From positions 104,925,812-104,989,811 of the forward strand of contig CM034546.1 of NCBI GenBank assembly GCA_020055645.1: DNA of 64,000 bases. Direction: 5' to 3'. The notes under the pieces were generated by a model. That model was not told where the DNA came from. It searched no databases and saw only the letters and a program-made list of their open reading frames with translations. How positions within the stretch are numbered: the stretch's first letter is position 1; each line of letters starts with the position of its first letter. Shown in pieces: positions 6,177 through 53,944 of this stretch. This DNA is from Tomocerus qinae. Its lineage: Eukaryota; Arthropoda; Collembola; Entomobryomorpha; Tomoceridae. The translations under genes and the position numbers were made by a program.

Positions 6177-7562
6177 TTAAGCTGCAGTGTCGATTGTATT
6201 ATCCAATGGATTCGGGCGACCATTACCATTGCGGCTAGATTGATACGAAGGATGGTTAGGGTTCAACTGATTTGCATGATTATTTTTATCAGCGAGTGTG
6301 CCAGTTCCTTGATAGCCTTCATTATAAAAAAAATCGTACATTAACTTTTACGAGTAAAACCCATTCACACTTACTTTTCATGGATATACTTTTATAATAA
6401 TATAATTTGGGATTAAAACTACCTGCAGGACGGCCAGGGCCACTTGGAGCATGATTTGGATTCAATTGGTTTGCTCTATTGTCCCTTGCCAATTTGTTTA
6501 GGTCCACGACTATGTTAATTCCATTAAAAGTGTATGTACGAAACAATTCCAAATTAATGTTTTAAAATGGCATAGGAAAAGCAATACCAAAAAAGATTCA
6601 TTTTCCGATCAATTTTCACAAAAAAATTAATTGATTCAATCGAATTTTTCTTACCACTTTTAGGTGGAATTATATCAGCCACGCTTCCAGTTCCTGTCCC
6701 TCCTCCTACTTTAGGTTTCCCTTTAGTTATAACATCTGGTATGACATCCGATATCTTGGGTTTCAGCAGAGAGTTTCCTGCTGCTCTTGAAGCTCCAATT
6801 CCAGAAGAGCTTCCAGCAGCTAGTCCAGTCACTCCGTCAAATACGGGAACTGTCAAAATGATTTCGGACTTTTACATGTTGATTTAATACATAAATTCAA
6901 ATGTAAATTATGAACCCCTTTTACCCATTGCAGCATCAAAGCCTTGTCCAATAGTTTTTATCTCGCCATTTGCAATCTGATCTCCTAGCTTATAGTAACC
7001 ATACGCATACGGTCTGGCTGTAGCGGGTCCGTGAATAAGAATTTCGCTGGCAGTTATTACACTGTCCATTCCTGCTCCACCAGCCACACCTCCAGCCACA
7101 GCTCTATATAGGATTCAAGACTTGATGCAATATTATTGCAGGTAGACAAATAGCATGAATTAATGGATAGCTTTAAAAAATTTACCCAACGGGTCCACCG
7201 ACAAAAAAGCCACCAACCCCACCAGCTACGACTCCAGTAGAACGGCTGGCAGCTTTCATTGCCTCTTCCCCTCGTTTATTCTGTCCCAATGCAAAATGCA
7301 CAGTTCCTTTGACATGACCTGCCACTGGAATGGAGTCAATCACCCTGTCCATGTCTTGAGCAAATTTTTCTTGAAGATCCTTCGCTTCCCCCATTTTCCC
7401 GTCGATTGCGTACCCCATTGATGCGATTTGGGATACTACCGGAAATGTATTTCTGTAGGCAAAATTCTCTTGAGTTTCTAAAGCTCCTTTAGAATCCCCT
7501 CCGATGTATTGAACAAGGGATTTTCCCTGCGAAACCACTGGAATGCTGTCTGTATTACCCAT
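6177..7562 (-). CDS. Gly/Ala-rich protein of unknown function, tandem paralogue A
   Basis: Exons on the minus strand: 7562-7186, 7103-6925, 6849-6655, 6509-6423 and 6316-6177. All junctions are GT-AG, with phases 2,1,1,1, giving 325 residues. Exon 1 (residues 1-125) holds the conserved core: SIPVVSQ near the start, PVVSQIASMGYAIDG, and GHVKGTVHFALGQ. Next come Gly-rich segments GGVGGFFVGGPVG and AVAGGVAGGAGMD, plausibly hairpin or membrane-interacting but too short and polar to call membrane spans. Exons 4 and 5 each carry a related NQLNPNH motif followed by a Gly/Pro/Arg-rich stretch, looking like a duplicated exon. There is no signal peptide. The exon 5 acceptor is uncertain: 6316 or 6307 both keep frame. 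Its neighbour at 8384-9641 is a paralogue sharing exons 1-3. I do not recognise a named family. Confidence 0.75.
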
Positions 7563-8383
7563 CCTTTTCGTTCTTCAGTACTTTATGAAATAGAGATGTA
7601 GTTTCTCGGCAGTGCTCAGCTTGACTCACTATTATTATCTGGTAACCAAAATAGATTAATAAAAATATAAAGTCCTCCAACTTGATTTAGATGTGGTGTA
7701 GAGGACATACGTTTTACGAACCCAATTTAGATTTGAGATAGGATGTTGATATGAAAATAAACGTACTTGTCTCAATGTAGATTTAGATTTACACTTACAT
7801 ACAAGGCAGATGTTGTACTTATGGAAAGTTTCTCTTAAACTATTTTAGCCTAAAGCTAGTATTCATATAATTTGTTCTGTATATTATGGTTATTATATGA
7901 ATGATGTAGACTAGTTTTCATCTATAGTCATCACATGACTGTAAAACTTTCTACACTCATGGAGTCCAGAGGTTGACTTTTGGACTTGGTAGATTGATTC
8001 GTAATTGAAATAATTGAGTAAACGTTGGCTATGTGAATTTTATCTTTATAATTTTTTACACTATATAAATGTGATATTATTGCATTGATATATCTTCCTT
8101 GAAACTACTTTATATGTATATGCTAATCAAACAAAAATATATCCTTAAACAAATTACTTATCTTTATGGATTTTCTTCAATTTTATGTTTTTAGGTATAC
8201 ATAACGTGCATAATCATTTGGTCCCTGCATGCATAGCAGGTCCACGGAATATTGCGATAACATTATAGAATGACGAAAATATTTAACAACGATGAACAAG
8301 GCGAAAGTAGATCAAGCATAGCAAAGAATTTACATTCCAAAACAAATAATATACATCAAAACAGAACATGACAGCCTATACGC

Positions 8384-9641
8384 TTATGGCTTAGGGGCGA
8401 TAGTGGTTTCCATCAGATTTGGGTAGTTATTCTCTTTTCGGCTGGAGTTACATGGAGGAAGACGGCCATCATTCTTTGTTAGAATTGGGTTGGCAGATAT
8501 AGTGTCCAATCCAGCCACAACTGCTACACCTCCAGCAGCGGCGCTCAAAGGTGCCGAATTTACCAAAGGTCCTGTACATACAAAACATCAATTTAGTAGT
8601 CTGGTGGGCCCTTTTCCCCTTTTAAAAATTTATTTGGTTACTATCAAGGAGTTTAAACCGACTATCATGGTACTGATGCCAATACCAAGCGGGAGCAGAG
8701 ACTAACAGTTAAAGGTCTTTGATTTCAACTAGGAAAGATGACATAATCAGTCATGAGTCCATTACCTATCTGTCCTGCAGGTTTCTTGCTTTTGGTTATA
8801 ATATCTAGAATGGTACTAGATGCCTTAATGATTGTGGGCTTCACTAAAGAATTTTGAGCAATTCCTGCTGCCTTTGAAGGATCAATAATCCCAGAGGTAG
8901 CAGCTCCAGCGGCTAGTCCAGTTACTCCGTCCAATACGGGAACTATTAAAGAGATTTCGGACTCACATTTTCACTCGACAAATCCATATATGTAAAAGCT
9001 CTATGAATTAAATACCCATTGCAGCATCAAAGCCTTTTCCAACACTGTTTATTTTGCCATTTGCTATGTCATTTCCCAATTTATAGTAACCATAAGGTTT
9101 GGCGTTATCTGGTCCATGGATGAGAACTTCACTACCAGTTACTATGCTGTCCATTGCAGCCCCAGCTGAAACTCCTCCAGCCACGGCTCTAAATATCATC
9201 CAAGATTTACAAATTATTATTATAAATGGAGAAAGAGGTAAAAATGAGTTAAACTAAGTCTTACCCAGCTGGTCCTCCTACCAGCATCCCACCAGCTCCT
9301 CCCGCAATGACCGCAGTAGTACGACTGGCATCTTTCATCGACTTATCCCCTTGCTCATTTTGACCCAATGCATAATGCACAGTTCCTTTGACATGACCTG
9401 CCAGAGGAATAGAGTCAATCGCTCGATTCAAATCTTGTGCAAACTTTTCTTGAAGATTCTTTGCTTCCCACAATTTCCCGTCAATTGCATATCCCAATGA
9501 TGCGATTTGGGAAACTACTGGAAATGTATTTCTGTAGGCAAAATTCTCTTGAGTGTCTAAAGCTCCTTTAGCATCTCCTCCGATGACCTGAACAAGAGAT
9601 TTTACCTGTGAAACTACTGGAATGCTGTCGATGTTGTCCAT
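8384..9641 (-). CDS. Gly/Ala-rich protein of unknown function, tandem paralogue B
   Basis: Exons on the minus strand: 9641-9265, 9188-9016, 8942-8766 and 8571-8384, giving 304 residues. Exon 1 is exactly as long (377 nt) and in the same phase as in paralogue A, and splice phases 2,1,1 match. Shared motifs are SIPVVSQ, NFAYRNTFPVVSQIAS, AGHVKGTVHYALGQ, GFDAAMG and LDGVTGLAAGA. The last exon differs: it repeats an Ala/Gly-rich segment (SAAAGGVAVVAGLD) resembling exon 2, then ends in a polar tail, whereas A ends with two NQLNPNH modules. The start Met is fixed by alignment with A. Both genes appear intact, which points to a retained duplication. Function unknown. Confidence 0.75.
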
Positions 9642-10050
9642 TATATTTACGTTTTAGTATCGTACACTTCGAAATTCTGATGGTATTAGTATGTGCGTCT
9701 GTAGTGCTCAGTCTGGCTAACAATATTGACAAATAAAATTGCTAAATCGCCAATTTGGTTTATATTATATGCTAGGTTTTAGGAAAGTTATAGCTTATAT
9801 TTATGGTGTCCATGTTCGTTCATGTCTAGTCAAGTGTGATGGAATTCAATAGTTAGGTCATTGGGGCGATAAGATGAAATGAAAGTAAAAGTTTGTATGT
9901 GTATTTACGTTTTCCATTGTGACATTTATTATAATATTCTTCTGTATTCATCAGCATCACGCAATCACGCATCAAACTTTTCTATACTTGGGAGTTCAAC
10001 GTTTGGACTTTGGACTTTGCAGATTGATTCATTAATCTTTTCTGCTCATT

Positions 10051-11722: not shown

Positions 11723-13396
11723 TATATTATTTATTATTAAATTTTACGACTGCGGAAAGCTTTTGGTCGTTGCATATGAATTTAAAATGGCTTAAAATAA
11801 AACTACGTTCGACTTTTGCATGCTAAATTGAGATTTTACTTTGAAAAAGAACCTACATGAGTGTTCGAAATTGTATATTAATTTGTATCTATGGAAAATA
11901 GCCAGGGTTTCCCCCGGGGGAGTTTCCCCTATATTTCCCAGTAAAATTAGAATTCAGAATGTTATAAATATTGTTCAAACGGATGTAAAAAAGTAGCGGA
12001 GGTTAAGTCATAAGAACGCAAACATCTTTAGATGTAACATCCCTAGTCCTTTAGATACATGATCTAAAAGTGTACTTTCAATCAAATCAGGCTCTAGCTC
12101 ACGATTTTCAAAAATGTTACTATGACAGTGACAGCTCCTGTTACTTCAAGTCGTTCAAGTGACGAGCTCCTGTTTTACTCTTTGTCTGCAGCCAGGTTTA
12201 ACGTAACTTAGAAAAACTGTGTGGACCCTGGCAGTTGACAGTACGAGAGTAGCCTGTTTTGCTTTCTGTCTGCCGGCAAAGGACTAAAGCTAAAATTAAT
12301 AAAGTATGCAGCCGCCCTATTCTATGGTTAGGTTATATTGTGATAAACTAAATTAGGTTTGTGGGGTATCCAGTTTGAATGTTGAACCTCACTGGGAAAG
12401 GAAACCTGGTCGATACAGGGTTACATTTACAATCTACATCTATTTTGATCTTCTAATCCTCCCTAGACAAAAGACAAGGCATAGGGAGGACGTCTGATTT
12501 TGCTGATTTTCAAACTAAACAGTGCTTTTGACCACCAGATTTGAAATAGTTTGGATGCTTATCTGATTAAGATCAATCTCAATACTATTCTTATAATACT
12601 ATTCTTAGTAAGCATTGCTTACTGAAAAATGGACAGACAGACAGATTGTTAACTCCCACAAAGTAGTCTTTATCCCAACTTATCCCCTATTCTTTTAATT
12701 TCGAAACACTGAAATTTTACAAAATGGCCATGGTGACAGGCTATTTAATCATAATATTAATTCGAACACTAATATAGGTTCCTTTTCAAAGTAAAATGAC
12801 AATTATAGATTCCAAACTGTGAAACTGAATTTGTAAAATGAATTCATTATTCAAATGGTATATTTCATCTTCTTTTCCAGATAGGTATACCAAAAGTAAA
12901 CCTTGGAGGAAAATGAAAAAAATGGTATGGACATTGTTTTTATAAATGATACCGATGATGATATTTCCCTGATGTCGATGTCATGTTGGGTTAGGGTTAG
13001 GTTACACCTTTTCTAAACTCTGTGGTGAAACGAACGCAAGAAATAACCGCAAAATGCCAAGGCCAAATGCAATCAAATCAATGAAGTGTTCGTCATGGGC
13101 CAATTGTTCGACATTATAAAATTTAAATGCATAGTGTTACTATGGGAGATGTAATAGGTAGAGGGAAATTGTTTGTTTTAATTTTCTCGGAATTCTGAAG
13201 TATCATGATTGATGAATCCGAATTCCAGAATTCGTCATCCTGTTAAAGAAGTGTGAAAATCACTAACAGCCGGAAAACTGAAAACAAATTGATCCGAAAA
13301 AGTGTGTTGGAAGAATTAATTTTTTATAGCCGCATATGAAAATCTGAGTGTTAATTAATTAGTGTTAAATGGTATTGATTGAAGAATCCTAGAAAC
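11723..13396. other. Intergenic region upstream of the UBE2O-like gene
   Basis: No open frame with coding character. Small local features: a C/G palindrome (CCCCCGGGGG) near 11912, a short GACA run near 12635, and a local direct repeat of 'actattctta' around 12585. The core promoter of the downstream gene should lie in the last few hundred bases, but I see no clear TATA element. Confidence 0.4.
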
Positions 13397-16300
13397 ATGT
13401 CAGTTGAGGTGCCAAATCAAATTAAAAGTCGCACTGAAAGTTTGCAAACAGAAATTACCATTGAAGATGTTCGGTCAGATAACCAGCCTGGTACCCAGAC
13501 AGAGAAGCCAAAGAGATTGTACACTGGAGATATCATAGTACGGGTAGGTAAAGACTTTGCAGATGGAAATCCTATCTACGGAACCGTTCTCGCTGGACCT
13601 GCTGACTCCGAAATAAACCGTTCACCTGATGGGGGAAGTTCTTCTCAGGTTTTGGTACATTGGGACTCTTCAAATAAAGTAGACATGACCCAAGTGACTG
13701 AGGTAAATACCCACAGTTAAATAATTATTTCCTATATTGGGATTCATGAATTATAAGGTATATTTCACGAACCATCTGCATACATCTGTATCATCATGAG
13801 CAGCAATTTATCTTAAAACCTTTAGGTAGCGTTGGTGGACCGGATGTTGATGAGAGGTCAAAGAGTTAAGAATGAGGATGGTGTATGTGGGACAGTTACA
13901 GTATACATGAACAAGGCTACCGTTAATATCGTCGGCACAAGTCATATCGTTGAAAATGTTATGACAGATCGCTTGGGGCCCGTTTCTGTAATAATCTCGA
14001 ATTACTCTTTGTTTTCACTTAAAATCTTTAACCAAATTTACTGATATTATATAATTTGTATTATTTGATGGCCAGACATACGTAAGGGGCCAGGAAGTTA
14101 TCTATCGCGAATGGGTCGGAGTGATTACCAATATTAAGCGAAATGTTTGGTTCCAGTTGGATGGAGTACGGAAATGTATTTGTATGGAAACTTATGAATG
14201 TAAGTTAAAACGTAAAGTTGTAATATTGTAATGTAATTGGGTAATGGGGATGTGATGTTACTTCACTTTTGTTCATCGTAGAAAGTAATGAGGTAGCTTT
14301 TTGTTTGAAAGCAAAATGTTTGGTGTCGGCAGTTTATTATTATTTTGTCTGACAGTTTTCATAATAGAATCTATCAGAAGATCTAGTGCATTATATGTTA
14401 CTAATTTGTATATTATTATATGTTCAAGCGGACAGATTTATGAAAAATGATCCATATTGGGGCATAGGAGTCTCTTGTCCTGGTGTTCGCACTCATTTTA
14501 GCCCGAGTATGCTGAAAAAAGCTAAATGGACTGGATCATCCATGCGATTCTTTTGGAAGTGGATTCCATTTCTTCCTTACTTGTATTCGTTTTTCCCAGC
14601 AAAAACTACAAGAACAGAAGTATTGTCATTTTGAAGTATTTCGGGTTAATCATTAAAGTAATTTTTCGGATCTGTACTATTAACCGTGTATTTATCTGTC
14701 CAGGTTACTCAGCTAACTATCAAATGGTTATGCATTGTTCCTTACAAGAAGAATACAGAGATAGAACCTCCTCCAGAAATACTTACACAAAACGAGATGC
14801 GTTTCCTCGAGTTAGTTGGAGTACCCAGCACTGAAACAATTGGTTTCAACAGTGTTCGCACGTATCGATTAAAACCACAAGACTCAGTTACAAGTCACAC
14901 TCTGTGGTTATCTAAGTTTCGCACTAACTACATGAAAATGGATGATAAAAATCCAAAAGAAATTCGAAGTCCAGTCAATCCTCCTCTTTCAATTCTGGTA
15001 AATTTTCTCTATAATCCAAAGGTGATTTGGGTTTAGTGAATGAGTTAAGTATTTAGAGTATTCTTATAAGGAAATTAATCATTGATCACTTTTTTCTGTT
15101 TGCAGTCTTCAGTTGAAGGATATGATCTGCCTGTTAAAGTTCTGCTGCGACAAAATGAAGTTGAAATCGAATGGGATGTAAGAATGTGATTGAAAATAGT
15201 TTTTAATCCAATATAATTTTTTGCTTCACGAAATAATTTTTTGATTTAGAATGGAACAAAGCAAATCATGTTATCAATTGACGTTCCATATCTTCAAAAA
15301 ATTCCTGATTATCCCTCAGGAGTTGTGGTTGCACCCATTCACAAAACGAATTTTGACTCTGAGATTTATGGCATTGTTCAAAATAGCGAGAAATTCTGTA
15401 ATGATTATTACTTACATAGTAATTCTGTCTTTTAGTTTTCTGACATTTATAATCTCAAGATTCATTTATCACGCAGATGCCGACAAAAACAAAATTGTTC
15501 CAGTCCGCTGGATCCACATTGATGGTGAAAGCATAAGGGATTTGGGAATCCATGATGAATCAGTCTATGATATCAAACTCCATTCTCGTTATTGTCTCTA
15601 CGTCCGAGGCACAATTGTCTTTGCAAAGAATCCACTAAAAGAACGCTTCCGAGCTGGTACTGTTACTGATATTGATGTCAAGTCAGGGAAAATGATCGTT
15701 CTCAACCCATCTGATAATAGCATACACTACATGCTACCACATTCCATTATCCCAATGTCCAAGAGGTGTTACTGGAATTTCTTTTCGCGGAAATGGATTG
15801 AAGGTACACTCAGGTGATAATTATGATTTTTTTCAACCCAAATTAATACATCTTTTCAATATCCACATCCAGATGATTTAATTCCTCCTTCTCATCAACT
15901 GGAAATGGAATTTGATCCTGAAAAGAATATCACTGATGCGACCAACGACACACTTCTAAAATCTCTGTACAGTGATAACAATAATTTGTTGTCCCGAGAA
16001 GAAAATAGCATTTGGGATGAATCTGCTTTTAAGATGTTGGACGAAGCTCCTGAGAATCATCGCTTTTATCCTTTTAATTCCGATATTTACACCAATGCAT
16101 TTGCAACGATTTTCTCCGCAGAACGGAAAGTGTTGAGCGATAATGTACCACAGGGGATTTGGATTCGAATGTATCAAGATAGAATGGTAATAAATACATA
16201 ATGCCTTAATTAATGAAAAATTTAAACTCTACTTCCAAATTTTCAGGATTTGCTATCAGTGCTGATGTTGGGACCTACAAAGACTCCGGTATGTCAGTTG

Positions 16301-19300
16301 TTTCTCCCTGCTAAAAATTACTGTTGAACCTGTTAAATCAGGTTGTTATTACAATTTTACTCATTTTACTGACAGTATGAGGATGCCCTTCTTCTCTTTG
16401 ATATGCAACTACCGAAAGATTTTCCAAATAGTCCTCCACGGACCAAGTTTATCTCCTACGTTTCCCGTGATATCAATCCTGTTCTCTCTAGTGATGGAAA
16501 CTTTTGTGTGAGTAGTATTAAGTGGGAACCTCCAGCTTACGAAAAGAATGTTTCCAATGTTTTGGTATTTGTTGGCAAAATACAAGGTATAATTACTTCA
16601 ATGAGATTTTTATTTCCATTATCGAAGCATGCATTTCATATTTTATCTCCTCATTGTAGCCATGATCTTCAGGACCCAAACCTATGGGGACCTTTTTAAA
16701 AATTCCGACATAGTAATTGGATCAACTTTTCGCGACTCTGTCGAATATAATGAGGGTGTGATTATCAATATGCTCGATTCTGGTTTCAATATGATTCACA
16801 AGCCATGGGCACCTTGGTCCTCCCTCATTCGTAACCATTTTGTATCTACCTTACCAGAGTAATTGTTTATATCATCTTTACCATAATTTTATTTAGATAT
16901 TCGATAGTTAAACATGTTTTCTGTATTCAATTGCAGTCGAGTAAAAATGGCGAAATCCTTATTAGCAGCAGCGGAATCTGTTTCGGGTTATTTTTAATTT
17001 CAAATTCTTATATCTCTAATCAACATAATTTGATTTTCCTAATGGGCATTTTCATACAGAGCCGGAACCCGAGGAAAGCAGTTTCCCAATTTCACCAATG
17101 TCTCAAGGATTTAAGAAGGCATTACTACCGCGGTTGGAAAAGATGGAGAAACTATTAGTGTCACTTACCGAGACTCCTGAAATATCTGTAGATTCAGAAA
17201 AGCCTTCTACCTCAATAACCGAAGAGCTGACCTCAATTAAAGAAGAGATCAATGTGACTCCAAGCGCCACTTTGATCAACGGTAAAAGTCAGGAGAAAGT
17301 CACTTCTAAGGCTTCTAGAGACACAATGAAGAATTTCTTGGAGAATTCAACAGATATCGTGGACCAATGTGAAGAAGTTAAACCCTTACCCTTGGTCTTA
17401 TCCAACGACATTTACAGCGAAAAATTTAAATTGGACTTTGATTACATGGCAACAAGAAAAGACAAGCCTGTTTCTAAATGGTGGGGTGGTCACATAAATT
17501 TAGAACATCTAGGCCAGTGTTGCATGGGAGTTCTTCCATATAACATTCTAAACAACGATGACTTGTATGACTCTATTAAAACTTTGCACGACCCCTTAAA
17601 AATTGAGCTACAAACTATAGAACATCGAATGGGGCTATACAGAAACAATTCACCAGATTGGTCCCCCGTGCCTCTATGTCCAATCACAAATTTAATGCAG
17701 TTAGAGTGTAATTTACCATTAGGAACTAACGAGAGAGTAGTGTGGAGCCGGTTTTGCACTTATATGGACGAAAGAGGAATTGACTTGGTAAGTAAAAGGA
17801 ATGTATGCGCATATAGGATAATACAGCTCCAGATGATTGATATTAATTGGGTGAGACTATATTACATTGGAGAAAGAAGTACATTTTAGGAATCCCTTAG
17901 GAGTAGGATATGAATCTGTACCCTTTTTTATGAAGGTCAAGCATAACATGAGTACATGTAAGGAAAGGAAGGCACTACTAAAGAGTTTCATGTTCACGAT
18001 TCCTTGTTTACAATTCAAATATTTGCTAATTCAAACGTGTTATATCCCTATTTATTTAGGTAATTCCCGAATAGGATAGTGAGATAAGTAGCGATATCTT
18101 GACGAACTAGTAAAATCCAAGTGTTGTACACTTAACCCAATCACGAGCTTTTTAAAGATATGAGATGCACTCAAGGCTGAAAAATGTTGAAGAGTGAGAC
18201 AAATTCATACCAAATTTAGGCAGGAGGATTTATTCATGGATTGCATGGCATTTTTCATTCTTTCAGCCATGCTGTGCAATAAATACTTTTATTTACATCC
18301 CGACATGCAAATACATGCCTAAGAATACAAAGAAGTTACATCAAATAGACAGGATGATGAGTGTGTCAATAGATTTCGTGTACCATCCCAAAAACTAACC
18401 ACGGAGCTATTCTTTTTTTACTCTGTCTACACACAACATCAAACTTGCGTTTGAAAATTGAAATCTGCTATAAATTTATGTCATATTAATAATAACAATA
18501 ACACTACAAAAGATCTTCTTAAATGCATTTGTATATTAATCCTTTCTACAATAATGCTATAGAGGAATTTCAATGTAAACTGTAGAGATTTTATGATACG
18601 ATAGACACTCTACCTCAATTCCTACTTGCTTATTCACATTTTGATGTATGATTCCCACAGAGTGATTTAATTACCAACGATTAGTCTCTATGACTTTAGA
18701 CACAGATAATACTTGTGCATAATAAAGAGGATTTAAGCTCAACTTGAGTTTCGTTAATGAGCTTAAGTTTAGCACGTTGCGTAAACGTAATTGCGAGCTG
18801 AATAGTTAGGTAGTTATGCCTGCCTATCCATTTATTCATTGTATTGCATGCTTTTAACAAGGTGACGTAAATGGGAGGTGGTAACTCACCTAATGAACTT
18901 ACTTAATTAAAGCTAGCCTACTCCTCAGCATTTTGGAGGTCTACGAAATGAAATTATACCAAGACTCGTGTTAATACTTTCATGAGCCAACGAGATTTAC
19001 TAACGATACATAAAAATTGCAATTGCCATTGGATATTCTTAAAGGAAATACAAAAGGGTGGGAACTGTAGTATGTAATACAGTATGTATATAATATATCC
19101 TAATTTTATGCAAATGTTTTGATTTTAGAGGTCAACCCTCGTATACAAATGTCAAAAACGAGGCTGCGATTGGACGTTGACTACTAATGATTCTTCTTTC
19201 TACTTGGAAGGATCAACGATCAATGACATTATAAAAAACTTCGGGATTTTAAGCCTGACGTGTGATAGATGCAAATTAAAGCAAACCATACCTCCAACGG

Positions 19301-19801
19301 ATATTGTGCTCGCCCGATATTTGCTCATTTTTCAATCAGGGACAACTAATTATGGAAAAAATTTTATGATTGACAGAAAACAACAAATTTTGAACCACCA
19401 ATATGTTCTCATTGGTAAGACTTAGCGAATTAATTCGCTTTCAAAATTACCTCCAACTGAGGTAGTCGGATTTTTGAGAGCGAGTAACGTAGGCTGAGGC
19501 CGAGAATTCTACTTAATGCTATACATATAATAATAACAGTATATATAGCAATACAATGTTAAAAGAGTGGTGAGTACACCTGCTCTTTGAAGTTAAATAT
19601 TTCAGAAAGTAAAGGGAATATTTTAATTTTTTAGGATTTGGTACTACCAAAAAATCCCCAGCCCATGCGTACACTCACATAATAACAGGAGACTTTATTC
19701 ACTCGATATCGGATGAAAAATCATTCGAAACAAGTCTACCTGCCAATGAGGAAGATTTATGCATAAGATCCCTTCATTATGTCATATTCAAACGTGCGTA
19801 A
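13397..19801 (+). CDS. UBE2O-like: UBE2O-like E2/E3 ubiquitin enzyme fused to a USP-like protease domain (16 exons)
   Basis: Exons: 13397-13702, 13826-13987, 14076-14199, 14429-14619, 14704-14997, 15106-15177, 15250-15397, 15477-15803, 15873-16186, 16247-16288, 16376-16586, 16660-16858, 16937-16986, 17060-17787, 19129-19414, 19635-19801. Every junction keeps frame, giving 1206 residues. The N-terminal half aligns with the SH3-like conserved regions of UBE2O (GTVTVYMNKATVNIVGT, VYDIKLHSRYCLYVRG). The UBC domain spans ~625-790: QDRMDLLSVLMLGP, YEDALLLFDMQLP and catalytic Cys704 in NFCVSS. SQGFKK (828-833) matches the conserved C-terminal helix of UBE2O. The same exon then runs into a USP-like fold: Cys box LGQCC (Cys968), zinc pairs Cys1064/1069 and Cys1101/1104, His box AHAYTH (His1162) and Asp1178. 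UBE2O ubiquitinates basic and misfolded proteins; the protease part is inferred. A donor-like GTGCGT at 19794 leaves the 3' end slightly open. Confidence 0.75.
17788..19128 (+). other. Long intron (1341 bp) inside the USP-like domain
   Basis: It begins GTAAGT after a phase 0 codon and ends TTTTAG before a phase 0 codon. It is about ten times longer than the gene's other introns and contains no coherent frame or recognisable element. It is the least certain join of the gene model, although the domain reads through it continuously: protease palm before, zinc-binding CX4C after. Confidence 0.55.
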
Positions 19802-20305
19802 ACTCCTCAACACAACGTGCGTATACTGAACGGTATCTTGAACCTTATCACTTCTCGCTTTAATCCGATGATACAATGTTAGACTAATAATATTACCAGG
19901 TCATTTTAATGTCTACAAGTGCTACGTATTTTCAAATAAATATTTCGTTTTGTGCACAGGCATTTTGTGTATATGTATTTTTGTTTCCGACAGTTTTTGG
20001 TACTCTAAATACTTTAGGGCTGATTTAGGAAATATTCGCATTAAGCTCATCAGATAGCCAATAGAAATCTACGTTTAAATATTTCCAAGCAAAACGAGAA
20101 CCAAGTGGAGAACCACGGTCCAGTTAATCTGTGTCTCATCAATCAGGTTATTTACACTCAAGCAAGTTTATACATTTTCTCCAGACAATGTAAATTCTTT
20201 TACAAATGCAAAATTGCATGCATATAGTTACAAAATGTGTGTAATTTTAACTTAAGTACTAACTAGAAGATTAGCTATTCTATTATTGTTATATGTAGAA
20301 TTTAG

Positions 20306-20509
20306 AATCTAAAAAATTGGATCGCACCTGAATTTTGCACGGATCGTGAATCCGAAATAGTAAGTGATGTTTTTATTCCGCTGCGGCTTCGACACACTCA
20401 ATCGCACGTTCAACATTTGGCCGAGGGCCAGATGGAAGCATTTAAACAAAGTCCCTGCGAAAATTACGATTCCTTATCCTACATGTACTTGGGTTGGATA
20501 CTATTATAG
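20306..20509 (+). pseudogene. Coding-like segment, unassigned exon or gene remnant
   Basis: After a splice-acceptor-like TTTAG, 67 codons stay open to a TAG at 20507-20509. The translation looks protein-like (NWIAPEFCTD, FIPLRLRHTQSHV, MEAFKQSPCENYD) and local GC content rises, unlike the surrounding spacer. It has no start Met and no obvious partner exon; the GTAAGT inside it at 20359 could also be a donor. The stretch 19802-20305 before it also has a few short coding-like fragments but nothing I can join. Family unknown. Confidence 0.35.
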
Positions 20510-20970
20510 TAAACCAATGCCGTTTGAATTCAAGTGGAAAACTGCTCGGAAATTCGCCAATTGCAAAGAAATTATTACTTGTTTTACGTGTGTGTGTGTG
20601 TGTGTAGCGAGAAAACCGCTGTTACATCACAGTCTATAAGACGGAACGAGGAAAGGCATTTATTATTTAGTTATAGTCATTCAGCCATTGGTATAAACTC
20701 CGTATATAATTATATTGGATCATTGATAATCAAACACCAAGGAAGATAAAGTAGCTGAGTATACATTCAACATTGACTTTTGTACAGAATTGTTTACTTT
20801 ACCATCAGTTTTCAACGAGTAAGAATCTGGTCCCCGTTCGGTCTGTTTTTCTGTCGAAGAGCTCACATGCAAAAATCCTTCAATTTATTTTATTCACATC
20901 CATACAGAATCAAACAACTTAGCACTAAAACGCTTCAAGAACTTTGTAAACAATTGGTCCCACAGAGTAA

Positions 20971-21243
20971 GCCATTTCACTCACATTACAGTATATAGGC
21001 ACTGAAAACTGGTTTCAAATAGTAAATGATAATGTTTCAAGATCTTTTCCTAAATTAATAGTTAAAACATGTAATTCGACTTCCTATAAAAGATCAGTGC
21101 AGCATGAGGCAATATTGACTTTGAACAAACTACCAAGGAAATGGGCCTATAAAGAACTATCATTAGGTAATCTGATGGATCTTGTCAAAAATGAAATTAT
21201 ATTGCAAAGGGATATGGATATGTTATATTACTGGAACTACTGA
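20971..21243 (+). pseudogene. Coding-like terminal segment, unassigned
   Basis: Open for 90 codons to a TGA at 21241-21243, with a good pyrimidine-rich acceptor at 20991 (exon start 20992, phase 0). The translation is protein-like: YIGTENWFQIVNDNV, then a Lys/Leu-rich helical end with HEAILTLNKLPRKWAY. Upstream at 20908-20966 another acceptor-led segment reads TKTLQELCKQLVPQ, faintly like the start of a SOCS box, but in a different frame and too close for a normal intron. AATAAA at 21364-21369 fits as a poly(A) signal. Either the 3' end of a small gene with exons I have missed, or a decaying gene. Confidence 0.4.
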
Positions 21244-21382
21244 TTGTTTATCTCAAATTGTATTAGGATAGTGACCATAGAGGAGGAGCAGCCGCAGTAA
21301 TATGTTAGCTGAGTTTTGATTGTGAATTGATTTTGCAATTGAATATGTCGTTTTTGTCACTCTAATAAAACTAAGTTTGAAT

Positions 21383-23912
21383 CAATCCTCCGACGATCGA
21401 GTTGAGCAATGGCTCATTCGAAAGAGGGTTGACAGGGATACAAAGTCTCTGAACGGAAATCCCACTTTCCGGACCGGAAAAGAGTTTCCCCCCGCCCCCT
21501 CCTCAAAAACTACATGGTTTCAGAGGGAATCTTGGATGGTTGACAAACGGGTTGGCGGATTTGGCTGGAAATGGTGCCAAAAAGACGGACGCAACCGTAG
21601 GGAAGTGGTCGAATCAAAAAAAAAATCCTGGAACCCATTGGGTTCCAGGAATTGCGGAAGAGTGGGGATTTCTCGGTTTTTCACCGGTGAAAACACCATA
21701 ACTCTGCCAATCCTCCGACGATCGAGTTGAGCAATGACTCATTCGAAAGAGGGTTGACAGAGGAACAAAATCCCTGAACGGAAATCCCACTTTCCGGACC
21801 GGAAATGAATTTGCCCCCCCCCCTCCTCAAAAACTCCATTGTTTCAGATTGAATCTTTGATGGTTAAAGAACGGGTTGGCGGATTTGGCTGGAAATGGTG
21901 CCAAAATGACGGACACAACCGTAGGGAAGTGGTCGAATCAAAAAAAATCCTGGAACCCATTGGGTTCCAGGAATTGCGGAAGAGTGGGGATTTCTCGGTT
22001 TTTCACCGGTGAGAAAGCCATAACTTTATCAATCCTTAGACGATCGAGTTGAGCAATGGCTCATTCGAAAGAGGATTGAATGGCGGTCAATGTCTCTGAC
22101 CGGAAATCCCACTTTCCGGACCAAAAATGAGTTTCCCCCCGCTCCCTCCTCAAAAACTCCATGGTTTCAGAGGGAATCTTGGATGGTTGAAGAACGGGTT
22201 GGCGGATTTGGCTGGAAATGGTGTCAAAATGATGGACGCAACCGTAGGGAGGTGGTCGAATCAAAAAATATCCTGGAACCCATTGGGTTCCAGGAATTGC
22301 GGAAGAAAGGGGATTTCTCGGTTTTTCACCTGTGACAACGCCGTAACTCTGTCAATCCTCCGACGATCGAGTTGAGCAATAGCTAATTCGAAAATGGGTT
22401 AACAGAGGAACAAACTCCTTAAACGGAAATTCCACTTTCCCGACAGAAAATGAATTTCCCCCCTCCCCCTCCTCAAAAACTCCATGGTTTCAGTGGGAAT
22501 CTTGGATAATGAGAGAACGGGTTGGCGGATTTGGCTGGAAATGGTGCCAAAATGATGGACGCAACCGTAGGGAGGTGGTAGAATCAAAAAATATCCTGGA
22601 ACCCATTGGGTTCCAGGAATTGCGGAAGAAAGGGGATTTCTCGGTTTTTCACCTGTGACAACGCCGTAACTCTGTCAATCCTCCGACGATTGAGTTGAGC
22701 AATGACTCATTCGAAAGAGGGTTCAGAGAGGAACAAAATCCCTGAACGGAAATTCCACTTTCCGGACCGGAAATGAATTTGCCCCCCCCCCTCCTCAAAA
22801 AGTCCATGGTTTCAGAGGAAATCTTGGATGGTTGAAGAACGGGTTGGCGGATTTGGCTGGAAATGGTGTCAAAATGACGGACGCAACCGTAGGGAGGTGG
22901 TCGAATCAAAAAATATCCTGGAACCCATTGGGTTCCAGGAATTGCGGAAGAAAGGGGATTTCTCGGTTTTTCACCTGTGATAACGCCGTAACTCTGTCAA
23001 TCCTTCGATGATCGATTTGAGCAATGACTCATTCAAAAGAGGGTTGACAGAGGAACAAAATCCCTGAACGGAAATTCCACTTTCCGGACCGGAAATGAAT
23101 TTGCCCCCCCCCCTCCTCAAAAACTCCATGGTTTCAGAGGAAATCTTGGAGGGTTGAAGAACGGGTTGGCGGATTTGGCTGGAAATGGTGCCAAAATGAC
23201 GGACACAACCGTAGGGAAGTGGTCGAATCAAAAAAAAATCCTGGAACCCATTGGGTTCCAGGAATTGCGGAAGAGTGGGGATTTCTCGGTTTTTCACCTG
23301 TGACAACGCCGTAACTCTGTCAATCCTCCGACGATCGATTTGAGCAATGACTCATTCGAAAGAGAGTTCAGAGAGGAACAAAATCCCTGAACGGAAATTC
23401 CACTTTCCGGACCGGAAAAGAGTTTCCCCCCGCCCCCTCCTCAAAAACTACATGGTTTCAGAGGGAATCTTGGATGGTTGACAAACGGGTTGGCGGATTT
23501 GGCTGGAAATGATGCCAAAATGACGGACACAACCGTAGGGAAGTGGTCGAATCAAAAAAAAAAATCCTGGAACCCATTGGGTTCCAGGAATTGCGGAAGA
23601 GTGGGGATTTCTCGGTTTTTCATCGGTGACAACGCCGTAACTCTGTCAATCCTCCGACTATCGAGTTGAGCAATGGCTCATTCGAAAATGGGTTGACAGA
23701 GGAACAAAGTGCTTAAACGGAAATTCCACTTTCCCGACCGAAAATGAATTTCCCCCCTCCCCCTCCTCAAAAACTCCATGGTTTCAGTGGGAATCTTGGA
23801 TAGTGAGAGAACGGGTTGGCGGATTTGGCTGGAAATGGTGCCAAAATGACGGACGCAACCGTAGGGAGGTGGTCGGATCAAAAAAATCCTTTGGGTTCCA
23901 GGAATTGCGGAA
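21383..23912. repeat. Satellite array, about 320-327 bp unit, about 7.8 copies
   Basis: Units begin with 'caatcctccgacgatcgag' at about 21383, 21709, 22030, 22354, 22677, 22998, 23320 and 23648. Each unit holds the same ordered blocks: 'actttccggaccgga', a C-rich run (CCCCCCCCC), 'aaaaactccatggtttcag', 'gggttggcggatttggctgg', a perfect hairpin with 12-bp arms (TCCTGGAACCCA / TGGGTTCCAGGA, 1-nt loop), and 'tttctcggtttttcacc'. Units differ by scattered substitutions. Open frames inside are by-products of periodicity. The array stops abruptly after the hairpin at about 23912. Confidence 0.93.
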
Positions 23913-33141: not shown

Positions 33142-34360
33142 ATGGAGATTTTGTGGGCTGTTGAGGAAGATGCAAGAAGAAGTTTGGCTCGTGCCCGTCT
33201 TTTTCGAAATAGAACGAATGTCTTGGAAATTTATGATGACAAACGTCTCATTACAGATTTCCGATTTCCAAAAAATGAGATCATGCAAATAATTGATATG
33301 TGTCAAAGCTTACAACGAAAAACCCTCAAACCTTCTGCTCTTCCCGTGCATATTCAAGTTTTAACTACGTTAAGGTACTTAGAGATACTTAATTCAAAAA
33401 TCTTAAACAAAAGAATGAATTTTAATTTTAAATGTTCATTTTTATGAAATTATTACGCTATAATTGTTAATTAGATTTCTGGCCCGAGGAACATTTCAAG
33501 ACGATGTAAAAGATATAATTGGCATCTCGCAACCAAGTGTAAGCAGAATAATTGGTGACGTTTGTAGCATAATATGCTCCCGAGCCCACGAATTCATAAA
33601 ATTCCCTTCAGAGGAAGAGCAAAAAATTATCAAAGTAAAATTTTATGAAAAGTATGGCTTTCCAAATGTTATCGGGATAATAGATGGCACGCACATATTT
33701 ATCAAAACGCCCAGTGAAGAGATGGAGACGATGTTTGTATGCAGAAAAGGAGGACATTCCATAAACGTCCAACTAGTATGCGATTTTGACATGATGATAA
33801 CTGATATAGTTGTTAAATGGCCAGGTTCAACTCACGACAGTTTCATGTGGAGCACTTGTGGATTACGGCAGACATTTGTGGAACAAAATCCTAATGGATG
33901 GTTATTGGGTAATTAAAATGAATACTAATTTATGATAAGCTGTTATCCTAAATACAATAAATCTGATACAGGTGACGAAGGATATCCGTGTGAGCCTTGG
34001 CTTCTTACGCCATTTGAGAGGCCACAAAATTCTTCTCAGCAAAAATTCAATAAAGCGTTTGCCAGCAATAGAAGCCAAGTTGAAAGAACCATCGGATTAT
34101 TCAAGTCTGTATTTCGCCGCTTTGATAAAAGTGGAGGAATCATTTTGTACGAACCAAGGAGAGTGTGCCAATTTATTGTTGCTGCGGCTGTTCTTCACAA
34201 TATTCGCCGTACTCTTAAATTACCTGAAGATGAAACTTTTGAAACGCCTGAATTCTTTGACCCGCCTGATAATGCTGCAAATGAAATGTCTGCAAACGAA
34301 ATCACAATGAGAGGTAATTTGGTGAGAGAAGAGGTCTGCCAAAACTTTTTTGGTTTCTAA
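33142..34360 (+). CDS. HARBI1-like PIF/Harbinger DDE transposase
   Basis: Exons 33142-33374, 33475-33908 and 33972-34360 join in phase (2, then 1) into 351 residues. The protein would cut and join the transposon ends. The core motifs are in order: LRFLARGTFQ, QPSVSRII (helix-turn-helix-like), GIIDGTH with catalytic Asp148, WPGSTHDSF with Asp199, LLGDEGYP, PWLLTPF and SQVERTIG with Glu260, followed by the usual AAAVLHNI. All expected catalytic residues are present and no frame is broken, so the gene may be functional. The start is the first Met in the frame; 33124-33141 upstream is also open but lacks an ATG. The convergent partner gene lies about 250 bp downstream on the other strand. Confidence 0.85.
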
Positions 34361-34613: not shown

Positions 34614-35639
34614 CTACAAATACCCTAAGGCGGAATACTTTTTCTTTTTCAAATCCAATAGCTCCATTAGTGAGTTGTCGATTCCTCTAACATGAGTCAA
34701 AATATCATTTTGAGTACAAAGCATATTATTTGAGATTTTCGCACGAGCTGCTTCTTTGGTAGTAATCTTACGCTGTTTGCTTGTCTCCTTTAAAATAGAT
34801 TATACTTAAACATGGCATTATTTATAGTGGTATAATTAAATTAAATAATAATTACAGTATGGGTCTCGGAGCTTTCAATTGGCAATAGGCTAGGTTCTGA
34901 TAGATTTTCTGATGCACTTTCTGGGACCTGTGAAGCAACGGTGTCAACCTGTGGAAAATAAAATAATTGTATACATAATAGTACATAATAATAGTACATT
35001 TGAAGTTATTTATTTTTAGAAAAGAGATTTTCAGTGTACATTAATCGCTTGAAGTATTGGTTCAGCACTACTGTCAAACCCAGAAGAAACTCCTGTTATC
35101 CACGTACTACCGTAAAACTTGACCATTGATAACTCAATTATGGTTAAAGAATGTACTTTTTCTTCGAAAATGGTCAACGGATCGTCGATTTCAGATTCTC
35201 CCCCTCCGGTCTTATTTAAACGAGTGAATTCCGCAAAAGCTTTCTTTTTTACACGACTTTTTAGATCTCTATACTTGTCTTGCATTTGTTTTTCGTCTCT
35301 CCTAATGTTTGAAATTGCATTCACCTGAAATTGTATTTGTTCGAATTATTGTCAATTCTATAATTGTATTTGTAGGTAAAACCTATCACAGAACACATTA
35401 TACGTACTGTAGTATGAAATTTTATTGCTCACCCTATCAGAAATAGATTTCCATGTCTCTTTTTTCCGATCATGATCAATATTCGCCGAAAAGTTACCAA
35501 ATAAAGTTTTATGGTTTTCCAATATTGCCGTTATCAATTCATTTTCCTCTGCGCTAATCCAGTTAGGTCGTCTTGTCTTGCCACCCGTACTTCCTAAGTT
35601 TAATGAACACCTTGGTCCAAGTCTTCTTTTTGATGCCAT
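34614..35639 (-). CDS. Myb/SANT-like DNA-binding protein of the Harbinger element
   Basis: Minus-strand exons 35639-35433, 35324-35040, 34948-34856 and 34787-34614, all phase 0, giving 252 residues. Residues ~20-105 form a Myb/SANT-like trihelix domain of the kind found in NAIF1 and Harbinger accessory proteins: RPNWISAEENELI, TWKSISDRV, KYRDLKSRVKKK and then KTGGG. In known Harbinger elements such proteins bind the transposon ends and bring the transposase into the nucleus. The C-terminal part is acidic/Ser-rich, followed by a helical end with LMELLDLKKKK. Reading through the first donor would give a 93-residue truncated form. Complete and unbroken in the model. Confidence 0.78.
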
Positions 35640-36080
35640 TCTTCTAACTTTCAGTAGATTCGGATTATATCAGAAATATTCGAAAAATCTCATTGCTTAC
35701 GATTTTCATAGTACTTTTTATCTAATTGGTAGCTTTGATATTTTACATGCTCATTGCTAGTTGTGACGTAAGAATCGCAAAGTTGCTATACGACGCTGCT
35801 AACAGTGTAACAGTGGTGAGAATATGGGTATATTTTGAAATCGCAAGTTGACCATAGCAACTCTTGCGATGTCGTAAATCTGCTACAGAGTTCAGAATAT
35901 CGTTCCAGGGTGGTATTATTTCGTACAGGCAGTAAGGCGTGACATAGCTGTCACAGGTTAAAACCCAATTTAACACACACCGGACGGGCGACAAATCTAA
36001 CCCTATGGAAACTAAAATAGTACATAAAGGATAGCACCAATACCTATCTGTACAGAAGAAGTGATCTGGTGTCGACAATA

Positions 36081-42460: not shown

Positions 42461-42679
42461 CAACGTGAATAGAAATCATGGCAACCCTTTTACCCTTTCC
42501 CCATACAACGTGAAGACAATAGAACATTTTGCCCTCTTTCTGCAGCCAGTTTGAAATCATTAGGACATCATCTAAGGGGAAAACTGGGTGCAGTAAGACT
42601 AGTCTTTGGTACACTGCAAATTCTCCAAGATTGAACTGAGGAAGTTAATTTAACACTGCGAATAATATTATTGAGTAGA

Positions 42680-43108
42680 ATGGCAAGTTGTGTGATCAGT
42701 TTCTGTCTGAACAATCAGCGAAACATCAAATGCAATGGCAAACCGCATGTCACCTTCCACAGGTTCCCTAAAAATGAAGTCATGAAAAGGAAATGGATAT
42801 CTATTTGCAAAATTACAAATAAGGAACCTCGTTACTTGTGTAATGCTAAGGTATGCTCGGAGCATTTTCTTCCAAAGGACTTATGGACGTACTATGAATT
42901 TAACGAAGCAAACCTACTCCAACACAAAAAATTCCGAGTTAGCTTTGAAATAAAAATTAGAATAGATTTAATAGCCATTTCTGCCTTTGTCATTTCAAAA
43001 TTCAAGGTAATCTATTTGAAACTTGAGGCAACGAGATCCCGCTGCCTAAATCCAGCCGAGTTAATTATCCTTAGACCTCCGGAAACAGTATTCTTAATGG
43101 AACCGTAG
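42680..43108 (+). pseudogene. THAP zinc-finger domain, truncated P-type transposase
   Basis: The first Met opens a clear THAP domain: Cys4 and Cys9 (MASCVISFC), conserved Pro30 and Trp39, then Cys59 and His62 in VCSEHF, completing the C2CH zinc site. THAP domains bind the ends of P elements. After residue ~75 the frame stays open to 142 codons, but the sequence no longer resembles a transposase. A splice donor-like AAGGTATGC at 42849 falls within the domain. Truncated by rearrangement; not expected to be active as a transposase. A right-end minus-strand copy starts near 45083. Confidence 0.75.
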
Positions 43109-48675: not shown

Positions 48676-51600
48676 TTATATGTGGGAGTGCAGAGAAGGA
48701 TGAGTCTCTCGTTAGTCGTAGCCTCTCAGTATTATAAAAGGCCAAAGGCAGTGCACACTACCCGAATTTCCATTGTAATTACACCCTACAACCCACATAA
48801 ATTCGATGAATCATTTTGGAAAAAATCATTATGTATGTAAATTAGCCTACAGATTTCAAAATCGAACACTATGCTTGTGCCCCTACAACCGCTATAGCGG
48901 AATGGGGTCATCCACTATATCGGAAACTTTAAACTTTGTAATTAAATTCTATAAAAGCGGATTCAGATGTTATTGAGTATACTGATTCCAAAATTGGACA
49001 ACAATTTCAAATCCCATCAACTGCTATAACGGAATGGGGTCATCCACTATATTAGAAACATTTAACTTTTGTAATTAAATTCTAAAAAAGTGGATTTAAA
49101 TGTAATTGAGTATGCTGATTTCAAAATTGGACACCAATTTCATATCCCATCAACCGCTATAGCGGAATGGGGTCATCCACTATATCGGAAACTTTAAACT
49201 TTGTAATTAAATTCTATAAAAGCGGATTTAGATGTAATTGAGTATGCTGATTTCAAAATTGGACACCAATTTTATATCCCATCAACCGCTATAGCGGAAT
49301 GGGGTCATCCACTATATCGGAAACTTTAAACTTTGTAATTAAATTCTATAAAAGCGGATTTAGATGTAATTGAGAATGCTGATTTCAAAATTGGACAAAA
49401 ATTATATATCCCATCAACCGCTATAGCGGAATGGGGTCATCCACTATATCGGAAACTTTAAACTTTGTAATTAAATTCTATAAAAGCGGATTTAGATGTT
49501 ATTGAGTATGCTGATTTCAAAATTGGACACCAATTTTATATCCCATCAACCGCTATAGCGGAATGGGGTCATCCACTATATCGGAAACTTTAAACTTTGT
49601 AATTAAATTCTATAAAAGCGGATTCAGATGTTATTGAGTATACTGATTCCAAAATTGGACAACAATTTCATATCCCATCAACCGCTATAACGGAATGGGG
49701 TCATCCACTATATCGGAAACATTTAACTTTTGTAATTAAATTCTAAAAATGCGGATTTAAATGTAATTGAGTATGCTGATTTCAAAATTGGACACCAATT
49801 TCATATCCCATCAACCGCTATAGCGGAATGGGGTCATCCACTATATCGGAAACTTTAAACTTTGTAATTAAATTCTATAAAAGCGGATTTAGATGTAATT
49901 GAGTATGCTGATTTCAAAATTGGACAAAAATTATATATCCCATCAACCGCTATAGCGGAATGGGGTCATCCACTATATCGGAAACTTTAAACTTTGTAAT
50001 TAAATTCTATAAAAGCGGATTTAGATGTAATTGAGTATGCCGATTTCAAAATTGGACACCAATTTTATATCCCATCAACCGCTATAGCGGAATGGGGTCA
50101 TCCACTATATCGGAAACTTTAAACTTTGTAATTAAATTCTATAAAAGCGGATTCAGATGTTATTGAGTATACTGATTCCAAAATTGGACAACAATTTCAT
50201 ATCCCATCAACCGCTATAACGGAATGGGGTCATCCACTATATCGGAAACATTTAACTTTTGTAATTAAATTCTAAAAAAGCGGATTTAAATGTAATTGAG
50301 TATGCTGATTTTAAAATTGGACACCAATTTCATATCCCATCAACCGCTATAGCAGAATGGGGTCATCCACTATATCGGAAACTTTAAACTTTGTAATTAA
50401 ATTCTATAAAAGCGGATTTAGATGTAATTGAGTATGCTGATTTCAAAATTGGACACCAACTTCATATCCCATCAACCGCTATAGCGGAATGGGGTCATCC
50501 ACTATATCGGAAACATTTAACTTTTGTAATTAAATTCTATAAAAGCGGATTTAGATGTAATTGAGTATGCTGATTTCAAAATTGGACACCAACTTCATAT
50601 CCCATCAACCGCTACAGCGGAATGGGGTCATCCACTATATCGGAAACATTTAACTTTTGTAATTAAATTCTATAAAAGGGGATTTAGATGTAATTGAGTA
50701 TGCTGATTTCAAAATTGGACACCAATTTTATATCCCATCAACCGCTTTAGCGGAATGGGGTCATCCACTATATCGGAAACTTTAAACTTTGTAATTAAAT
50801 TCTATAAAAGCGGATTTAGATGTAATTGAGTATGCTGATTTCAAAATTGGACACCAATTTCATATCCCATCAACCGCTATAGCGGAATGGGGTCATCCAC
50901 TATATCGGAAACTTTAAACTTTGTAATTAAATTCTATAAAAGCGGATTTAGACGTAATTAAGTATGCTGATTTCAAAATAGCGGTTGATGGGATATAAAA
51001 TTTTTGTCCAATTTTGAAATCAGCATACTCAATTACGTCTAAATCCGCTTTTATAGAATTTAATTACAAAGTTTAAAGTTTCCGATATAGTGGATGACCC
51101 CATTCCGCTATAGCGGTTGATGGGATATAAAATTGGTGTCCAATTTTGAAATCAGCATACTCAATTACATCTAAATCCGCTTTTATAGAATTTAATTACA
51201 AAAGTTAAATGTTTCCGATATAGTGGATGACCCCATTCCGCTATAGCGGTTGATGGGATATGAAGTTGGTGTCCAATTTTGAAATCAGCATACTCAATTA
51301 CATCTAAATCCGCTTTTATAGAATTTAATTACAAAAGTTAAATGTTTCCGATATAGTGGATGACCCCATTCCGCTATAGCGGTTGATGGGATATAAAATT
51401 GGTGTCCAATTTTGAAATCGGCATACTCAATTACATCTAAATCCGCTTTTATAGAATTTAATTACAAAGTTTAAAGTTTCCGATATAGTGGATGACACCA
51501 TTCCGCTATAGCGGTTGATGGGATATGAAATTGGTGTCCAATTTTGAAATCAGCATACTCAATTACGTCTAAATCCGCTTTTATAGAATTTAATTACAAA

Positions 51601-52124
51601 GTTTAAAGTTTCCGATATAGTGGATGACCCCATTCCGCTATAGCGGTTGATGGGATATAAAATTGGTGTCCAATTTTGAAATCAGCATACTCAATTACGT
51701 CTAAATCCGCTTTTATAGAATTTAATTACAAAGTTTAAAGTTTCCGATATAGTGGATGACCCCATTCCGCTATAGCGGTTGATGGGATATAAAATTGGTG
51801 TCCAATTTTGAAATCAGCATACTCAATTACATCTAAATCCGCTTTTATAGAATTTAATTACAAAGTTTAAAGTTTCCGATATAGTGGATGACCCCATTCC
51901 GCTATAGCGGTTGTAGGGGCACAAGCATAGTGTTCGATTTTGAAATCTGTAGGCTAATTTACATACATAATGATTTTTTCCAAAATGATTCATCGAATTT
52001 ATGTGGGTTGTAGGGTGTAATTACAATGGAAATTCGGGTAGTGTGCACTGCCTTTGGCCTTTTATAATACTGAGAGGCTACGACTAACGAGAGACTCATC
52101 CTTCTCTGCACTCCCACATATATG
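48676..52124. mobile_element. 3.4-kb foldback made of 132-bp repeats in opposing arrays
   Basis: Outer arms of about 210 bp (48676-48885 and 51914-52124) are inverse complements, ending 'tatatgtgggagtgcag'. Between them, 132-bp units run rightward for about 16 copies (48886-50979), switch at about 50979/50980, and run in the opposite orientation for about 7 copies to 51913. Each unit contains the perfect 12-bp palindrome CCGCTATAGCGG. Left-array units fall into types (for example 'cggattcagatgttattg' versus 'cggatttaaatgtaattg') that recur every 4-5 units, a higher-order pattern. No coding capacity. Confidence 0.9.
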
Positions 52125-52409: not shown

Positions 52410-53944
52410 TTTTAGCTCGCCTGAAAAAGGCAGCTTATAGAACCACACAGTCTGTCCGTACGTCCGTCCGTACGTCCGTCCGTACGTCCGTCCGTACGTC
52501 CGTCCGTCCGTCCGTCGCCACGATAACTTTCGAACACAAAGGCGGATATTGACCAAACTTGGCAAAAACAATACCTATGGGCTACTAACGATCCCTATTG
52601 ATTTTGGGGCTAATCGGTCTATTGGTTGCCGAGATACCGCGCGCTCACTTTGTCTTCATTTTGATAGTCAACGTGAAAAATGGGCTTTGAAAAGTTCAAT
52701 TGCGTTTCCTATAAATTGTTAGCGGGATAGTATGAAATATTTCACTCCGCTTCTACCAAATTTAAGATTTTATAGTAAAGCAAATAAAACCGGAAAGTAA
52801 CTATAAGAGGACGGAAATAAATCTATTTCGCATTTATATTCAATTTTATAGTCAAACTTGCATTATTCCAATTTCTATTAATTTTCATTATTAATATTGA
52901 CCGATTTTGATTCTCTTTAGATTTTCATAGTCAACATTGTTCAATTTTGATTTTATGTTGATTTTCATAGTCAAAATTATTCAATTTTGAATTTTATGTT
53001 GATTTTTATAGTCAACATTCATCAATTTTGACTTTATGTTGATTTTCATAGTCAACATTGTTCAATTTTGATTTTATGTTGATTTTCATAGTCAAAATTA
53101 TTCAATTTTGAATTTTATGTTGATTTTTATAGTCAACATTCATCAATTTTGATTTTATGTTGATTTTCATTGTCAAAATTATTCAATTTTGAATTTTATG
53201 TTGATTTTTATAGTCAACATTCATCAATTTTGATTTTATGTTGATTTTCATTGTCAAAATTATTCAATTTTGAATCCCTATTGATTTTGGGGCAAATTTT
53301 GCCTTTGGGGCAAATTTTGGGGCAAAAAGGCAAAAAAGGCAACATAAAGTCAAAATTGATGAATGTTGACTATAAAAATCAACATAAAATTCAAAATTGA
53401 ATAATTTTGACTATGAAAATCAACATAAAATCAAAATTGAACAATGTTGACTATGAAAATCTAAAGAGAATCAAAATCGGTCAATATTAATAATGAAAAT
53501 TAATAGAAATTGGAATAATGCAAGTTTGACTATAAAATTGAATATAAATGCGAAATAGATTTATTTCCGTCCTCTTATAGTTACTTTCCGGTTTTATTTG
53601 CTTTACTATAAAATCTTAAATTTGGTCGAAGCGGCATTTAATATTTTGCACTATCCCGCTAACAATCCATTGGAAGCACATTTGAACTTTTAATGTCCAT
53701 TTAATGTCACATTTTCATTTTGACTATCAAAATGAAGACAAAGTGCGCGCGCGTTATCTCAGCAACCTGTGGACCAATGTGGCCCATTTTCAATAGGCTT
53801 TGTCACAGGTCTATAGGCAATGTTTTTGCTAAGTTTAGTTGAAATCCATCAATGTCTTCAAAAGTTATCGTGTAAACGGACGGACGCACGGACGGACGGA
53901 CGGTCTGTGCGATTCTATAAGCTGCCCTATCAGGCGAGCTAAAA
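52410..53944. mobile_element. AGCTCGCCTG-family foldback with internal 40-bp repeats, copy 2
   Basis: Ends TTTTAGCTCGCCTG and CAGGCGAGCTAAAA. Arms of roughly 500-700 bp contain CGTCC microsatellites (52455-52515; 53876-53905 inverted), 'gcgcgctcactttgtcttc', 'aataaaaccggaaagtaact' and 'aggacggaaataaatctatt', in both orientations. Toward the centre, 40-bp units (TTTGATTTTATGTTGATTTT plus CATAGTCAACATT-like ends) run in opposite orientations and meet at a G-rich 'ggggcaaatttt' junction near 53290-53340. No protein frame. Confidence 0.8.

Follow-up and report, generated by a model that had tools for sequence, protein, structure and literature searches.

The window analysed here is a stretch of 64,000 nucleotides from the springtail Tomocerus qinae (contig CM034546.1, hereafter C1, positions 104925812-104989811 of the 334-Mb assembly GCA_020055645.1). 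It carries, on the plus strand at positions 13397-19801, a gene related to UBE2O, an E2/E3 enzyme of the ubiquitin pathway. We propose that this is probably a young chimeric UBE2O gene formed by partial duplication, the end of which was replaced to give a hybrid with a new C-terminus. The join itself, an intact paralogue and an unbroken reading frame leading into a three-exon, 284-codon tail are all observed in the DNA. Since the join falls within an exon, the paralogue is intact and the homologue from Allacma fusca has no tail, partial duplication is the origin to which the evidence points.

The paralogue and the join

The intact, ordinary UBE2O paralogue lies 95 kb downstream, at C1:105034306-105038678, where it was first seen in a scan of the genome for UBC domains. 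Spliced on the same borders as the window gene, it gives 936 codons with one stop, and the first exons of the two copies are 94-95% identical as protein. DNA similarity to the paralogue covers positions 13065-17384, in three pieces, and nowhere else in the window. It begins with a copied upstream segment (13065-13396, plus strand; 332 bp before the start codon), which marks the 5' limit of the duplication as placed by blastn and by alignment to the paralogue, with a weakly aligned edge. At the other end, the last shared exon is identical at all 325 bases up to 17384, a position inside the exon, and beyond it nothing aligns. The same comparisons place the join at 17384/17385, between the last base shared with the paralogue and the first unrelated one. 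After the shared Pro comes SENQEAENITV and a stop in the paralogue, with an AATAAA further on, whereas the window copy has LPLVLSNDIY in a continuation of 284 codons. Past the counterpart of residue 921, the paralogue ends after 12 codons, and the window copy, without the early C-terminus of a UBE2O, runs for 285. An intact parental gene and a breakpoint within the gene, as a partial duplication would leave them, are both present. In a genome search with the paralogue protein, the window gene and the paralogue were the only close copies of UBE2O found, the remaining matches being UBC pieces at most 54% identical. A reading made earlier from the sequence only had claimed that UBE2O runs in frame into a long extra C-terminal region within one exon; this is borne out, and the region is absent from both the paralogue and the Allacma homologue.

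Gene model

Sixteen exons, all on the plus strand, splice to exactly 1206 codons with a single terminal stop. The introns are of the GT-AG type with matching phases. The acceptor at exon 4 is AAG and the donor at exon 13 is GTTATT, and both are also present in the paralogue. Exon 1 (13397-13702) contains the start codon and is identical to the paralogue at 293 of 306 bases. It is followed by exons 2 (13826-13987), 3 (14076-14199), 4 (14429-14619; AAG acceptor) and 5 (14704-14997), which rest on the splice model and the paralogue, as do exons 8 (15477-15803) and 13 (16937-16986; GTTATT donor). Exon 6 (15106-15177) has a high synonymous divergence (Ks) of 0.57 from the paralogue, and exon 7 (15250-15397) is 9 bases longer in the paralogue. 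The UBC match begins in exon 9 (15873-16186), at residue 625, and continues through exon 10 (16247-16288; splice model and Pfam) into exon 11 (16376-16586; splice model, Pfam and PDB search), which holds the active-site residue C704. Exon 12 (16660-16858) lies just behind the Pfam UBC match (residues 625-726); it is identical to the paralogue at 162 of 199 bases, and its residue differences cluster at 731-754.

Exon 14 (17060-17787) is composite. Its UBE2O part (17060-17384) includes the SQGFKK helix region (residue 828), and its tail part (17385-17787) includes LGQCC (C967 and C968). The tail continues in exon 15 (19129-19414), with the pairs C1064/C1069 (CX4C) and C1101/C1104 (CX2C), and in exon 16 (19635-19801), with H1162, D1178 and the stop codon. 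The sequence-only reading had described an uninterrupted exon with SQGFKK followed by LGQCC, then two further exons in matching phase with the zinc-type Cys pairs, His and Asp, and a UBC domain that keeps Cys704. The splice model agrees on each count: the exon is open throughout, and all of the named residues are present.

Identity of the UBE2O part and divergence between the copies

Residues 1-921 belong to a UBE2O-type E2/E3, and residues 923-1206 are not UBE2O. The Pfam profile UQ_con identifies the UBC domain (E value 3.1e-12; 46.7 bits, cut-off 27), complete with its active-site Cys, and tSH3-B_UBE2O also passes (E value 7e-06; 26.2 bits, cut-off 22.4), while SH3-B_UBE2O stays at 14 bits, under its cut-off of 22. 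The closest solved structure is UBE2O (e.g., PDB: 9wd0 and 9mc4; E value 3.6e-38). A search with the whole protein among about 5.8 billion sequences (3954 candidates) gave one hit, the 970-residue protein P0001 of A. fusca, which is 37% identical over model residues 72-889 and ends near the end of the paralogue, without the tail. This search, like those made with the tail (below), needs shared 5-residue words, and distant relatives, as well as the UBE2Os of other springtails, may escape it.

Overall, the copies are separated by a Ks of 0.080 and a non-synonymous divergence (Ka) of 0.028, a ratio of 0.35, and the frames are open in both. Ks per exon is a mosaic, being 0 in exons 9, 10 and 14, 0.03 in exon 8, and above 0.5 in exons 6 and 12; over aligned bases, intron identity is 84-96%. 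Exons 8-10 and 14 (15477-16288 and 17060-17384) hold in all two synonymous changes and one other change, and the difference amounts to 6% in intron 8 and 15% in intron 9. Near-identical exons beside divergent introns suggest an exon-biased gene conversion, and the mosaic does look like conversion in places. Exons 6 and 12 look as though they had either another source or a period of fast change. The idea that these divergent tracts came from a third UBE2O copy was dropped, none having been found in the genome search. At 51 residues the copies differ; the Allacma residue is kept by the paralogue at 15 of these, by the window copy at 7, and by neither at 29.

Coding signal and origin of the tail

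The first in-frame stop past the join, at 17887-17889, comes after 167 open codons. In first-order Markov simulations, with positions 24-52 kb of the window as background, an opening of this length was reached in none of 20000 runs and one of 134 codons in a single run of 20000. Codon scoring, with the UBE2O part as training set, favours the modelled frame in the tail part of exon 14 (0.346, against 0.249 and 0.119 in the other frames). The open frame bears on the possibility that two genes lie here: a UBE2O copy cut short at 17384, followed by a small gene in its own right that starts near M943 (17446), its upstream part overwritten and the shared frame coincidental. The abruptness of the join would suit such an arrangement, as would the place of M943, 20 residues past the shared Pro at the join and just ahead of the LGQCC region. 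However, the reading frame continues across the join and meets no stop ahead of the tail, and a second promoter would need to sit within copied UBE2O sequence. We regard two genes as quite unlikely.

In protein searches that need shared 5-residue words, no relative was found for the tail at an E value of 0.001 when it was searched by itself (208 candidates of about 157-500 residues), nor at an E value of 10 as part of an 802-residue query (926 candidates of about 441-1403 residues). Within its own genome the tail protein matches three places, which are its own three exons, and no other DNA copy of exon 15, exon 16 or the tail part of exon 14 was found among the 40 of 137 candidates scored, a search that faint copies could escape. 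Pattern matches in viral contigs (six) and in bacterial and archaeal genomes (ten) gave no confirmed case, and horizontal transfer from bacteria or viruses was dropped, as nothing was found in either search. Since the tail is missing from the Allacma protein too, its loss from the paralogue is less likely than its gain here.

The tail exons are set among copied fragments, all given here on the plus strand of the window. Within intron 14, positions 17916-18686 match C5:20493520-20494283 (minus strand) at 97%, and positions 18687-19079 match C1:99033863-99034257 at 95%; the two patches stand head to tail without a gap (17916-19079), each with one match elsewhere, as in a patchwork insertion. A dispersed repeat roughly 170 bp long (19423-19592) takes up most of intron 15, and at least 40 further stretches in the genome match it. 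Downstream, 19885-20985 aligns as three pieces, at 83-96% identity, to C1:103777491-103779444 on the minus strand (40 of 70 candidates scored). In the 1501 bases adjoining this last match, nothing related to the tail was found (best tblastn E value 0.20).

Such a patchwork locus, with parts of intron 14 and of the 3' flank matching C5:20.49, C1:99.03 and C1:103.78 Mb, could be read as a duplicate in decay, pieced together from copied fragments so that it mimics a gene, with exons 15 and 16 picked from random open frames. The weak codon signal of these two exons is in keeping with that. Against it stand the intact UBE2O exons and splice sites, the Ka/Ks of 0.35, the 167 open codons past the join, and the fact that the repeats and patches found sit in introns 14 and 15 and downstream, outside the three tail exons. 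Insertions which respect exon borders favour real exons, and we consider a duplicate in decay very unlikely.

Several points nevertheless weigh against a chimeric gene with a three-exon tail. In exon 15 the modelled frame is not favoured by the codon score (0.156, where the two alternative forward frames score 0.268 and 0.239), and in exon 16 it is favoured marginally (0.238, against 0.221 and 0.030). The direction of change, gain rather than loss, depends on one outgroup protein model. The tail, for which no homologue was found, could also have a start of its own at the ATG at 17446 (M943), as a separate gene.

Does the tail hold a protease?

The sequence-only reading had taken the gene to be a fusion of UBE2O with a USP-like cysteine protease. 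The UBE2O with an extra C-terminal region stands; the protease identity does not follow, as there is no Pfam or PDB match and the profile tests are mixed. No Pfam family lies above threshold in the tail, the sub-threshold matches including Zn_ribbon_FGT1_1 (E value 0.086; 12.9 bits, cut-off 27), and a PDB sequence search gave no match for it. The USP profile (PF00443, C19) does not match the tail. Nor does that of USPL1 (PF15499, C98), to which the tail had been said to stand closer: an exon-by-exon genome scan with PF15499 returned no tail match at an E value of 10 or better, with zero candidates at first look. In a genome scan that yielded 62 USP-family stretches elsewhere, the tail was unmatched. 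It was recognised neither by a local USP profile nor by a global one over its whole length, nor by an ordered-block test, in which the His and Asp blocks were not chosen. The Cys-box block gives no clear recognition either; the best placement is on LGQCC with C967 rather than the C968 proposed, and 425 of 5000 shuffles score equally well. AlphaFold2 single-sequence models of the tail have predicted local distance difference test values of 29.5 and 32.2, too low to speak for or against a papain-like fold.

A few observations are equivocal. The last 150 residues exceed shuffles in loose-gap comparisons, a signal that fades with stiffer gaps, and C1064, C1069, C1101 and C1104 align to the finger cysteines of USPs. 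Such Cys pairs occur in many zinc ribbons. H1162 and D1178 are present at the distance found in USPL1, while H1162 does not fall on the catalytic His column in the automatic alignment. A strongly diverged USP/USPL1-type cysteine protease with C967 or C968, H1162 and D1178, by which one polypeptide would both attach and remove ubiquitin or SUMO, strikes us as unlikely. Still less probable is a newborn fusion with a working, very divergent USPL1-like isopeptidase that would write and erase ubiquitin or SUMO on itself or on the substrates that it binds. At most, the tail can be credited with cysteines in a zinc-ribbon-like pattern.

Proposed origin and function of the chimera

In the partial duplication that we propose, a UBE2O segment of about 4.3 kb, made up of 332 bp of upstream sequence and the exons, minus the last 12 codons and the 3' untranslated region, would have been duplicated and fused to unrelated DNA at 17384/17385, a point within its last exon. 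The copied 332 bp would drive a single mRNA. Its product would be a UBE2O-like E2/E3 in which the SH3-B-type region, the UBC core and C704 are retained and a zinc-ribbon-like C-terminus is added. This protein would bind UBE2O substrates and may charge ubiquitin on C704, while the altered residues 731-754 behind the UBC core may weaken or shift conjugation. Rather than taking ubiquitin off, the new C-terminus would most likely affect the targeting, the partners or the stability of the protein. It is simplest to see the product as a modified or competing form of the parental UBE2O whose targeting has changed.

A conserved ubiquitin enzyme appears to have acquired a new C-terminus in a single step. 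With an unfused relative 95 kb away and a join defined to the base, the fate of a chimeric ubiquitin enzyme becomes directly testable. An active isopeptidase in the tail, if true, would unite opposite activities in one chain, which the present evidence does not show. Among the literature matches listed, no title or abstract opening reports a UBE2O-USP fusion or a similar UBE2O chimera.

Other features of the window

On the minus strand, 6554-7574 and 8725-9653 are tandem gene copies (SIPVVSQ..) with DNA about 77% identical; two open reading frames scanned there had no Pfam match. The stretches 33464-34357 and 35358-35669 hold DDE_Tnp_4 transposase halves and, on the opposite strand, a Myb/SANT-like open reading frame (Pfam), an arrangement like that of PIF/Harbinger elements. 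A THAP-domain open reading frame occupies 42635-43105. Tandem arrays are found at 21382-23890 (323-bp unit, 7.8 copies) and at 48886-51913 (132-bp unit), the latter flipping to the reverse strand near 50978. Satellite-like, AT-rich arrays with units of 464 and 415 bp extend over 53941-63775, and the GC content is 0.26-0.29 across 52-64 kb.

Comparison with known systems

With UBE2O of known structure (9wd0, 9mc4), an E3-independent E2, the window gene shares the tSH3-B and UBC domains and the active Cys, and it differs in its extra 284-codon tail and in residues directly following the UBC core, which are altered relative to the paralogue. The Allacma protein is likewise similar in the UBE2O part, at 37% identity, and has no tail. 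The exon structure and the final 325 shared coding bases are those of the paralogue, which also has no tail. Compared to USPL1, a SUMO isopeptidase (PF15499), the last half of the tail has a similar spacing of zinc-Cys, His and Asp residues, whereas the first half is unlike it and of different length, and no profile match was obtained. Young chimeric genes born by partial duplication are a known class, in which the breakpoint lies within an exon, an intact parent remains nearby and new 3' sequence is recruited. The window gene, known here from DNA sequence, has all three features in common with them: an in-exon breakpoint, a nearby intact parent and new 3' sequence.
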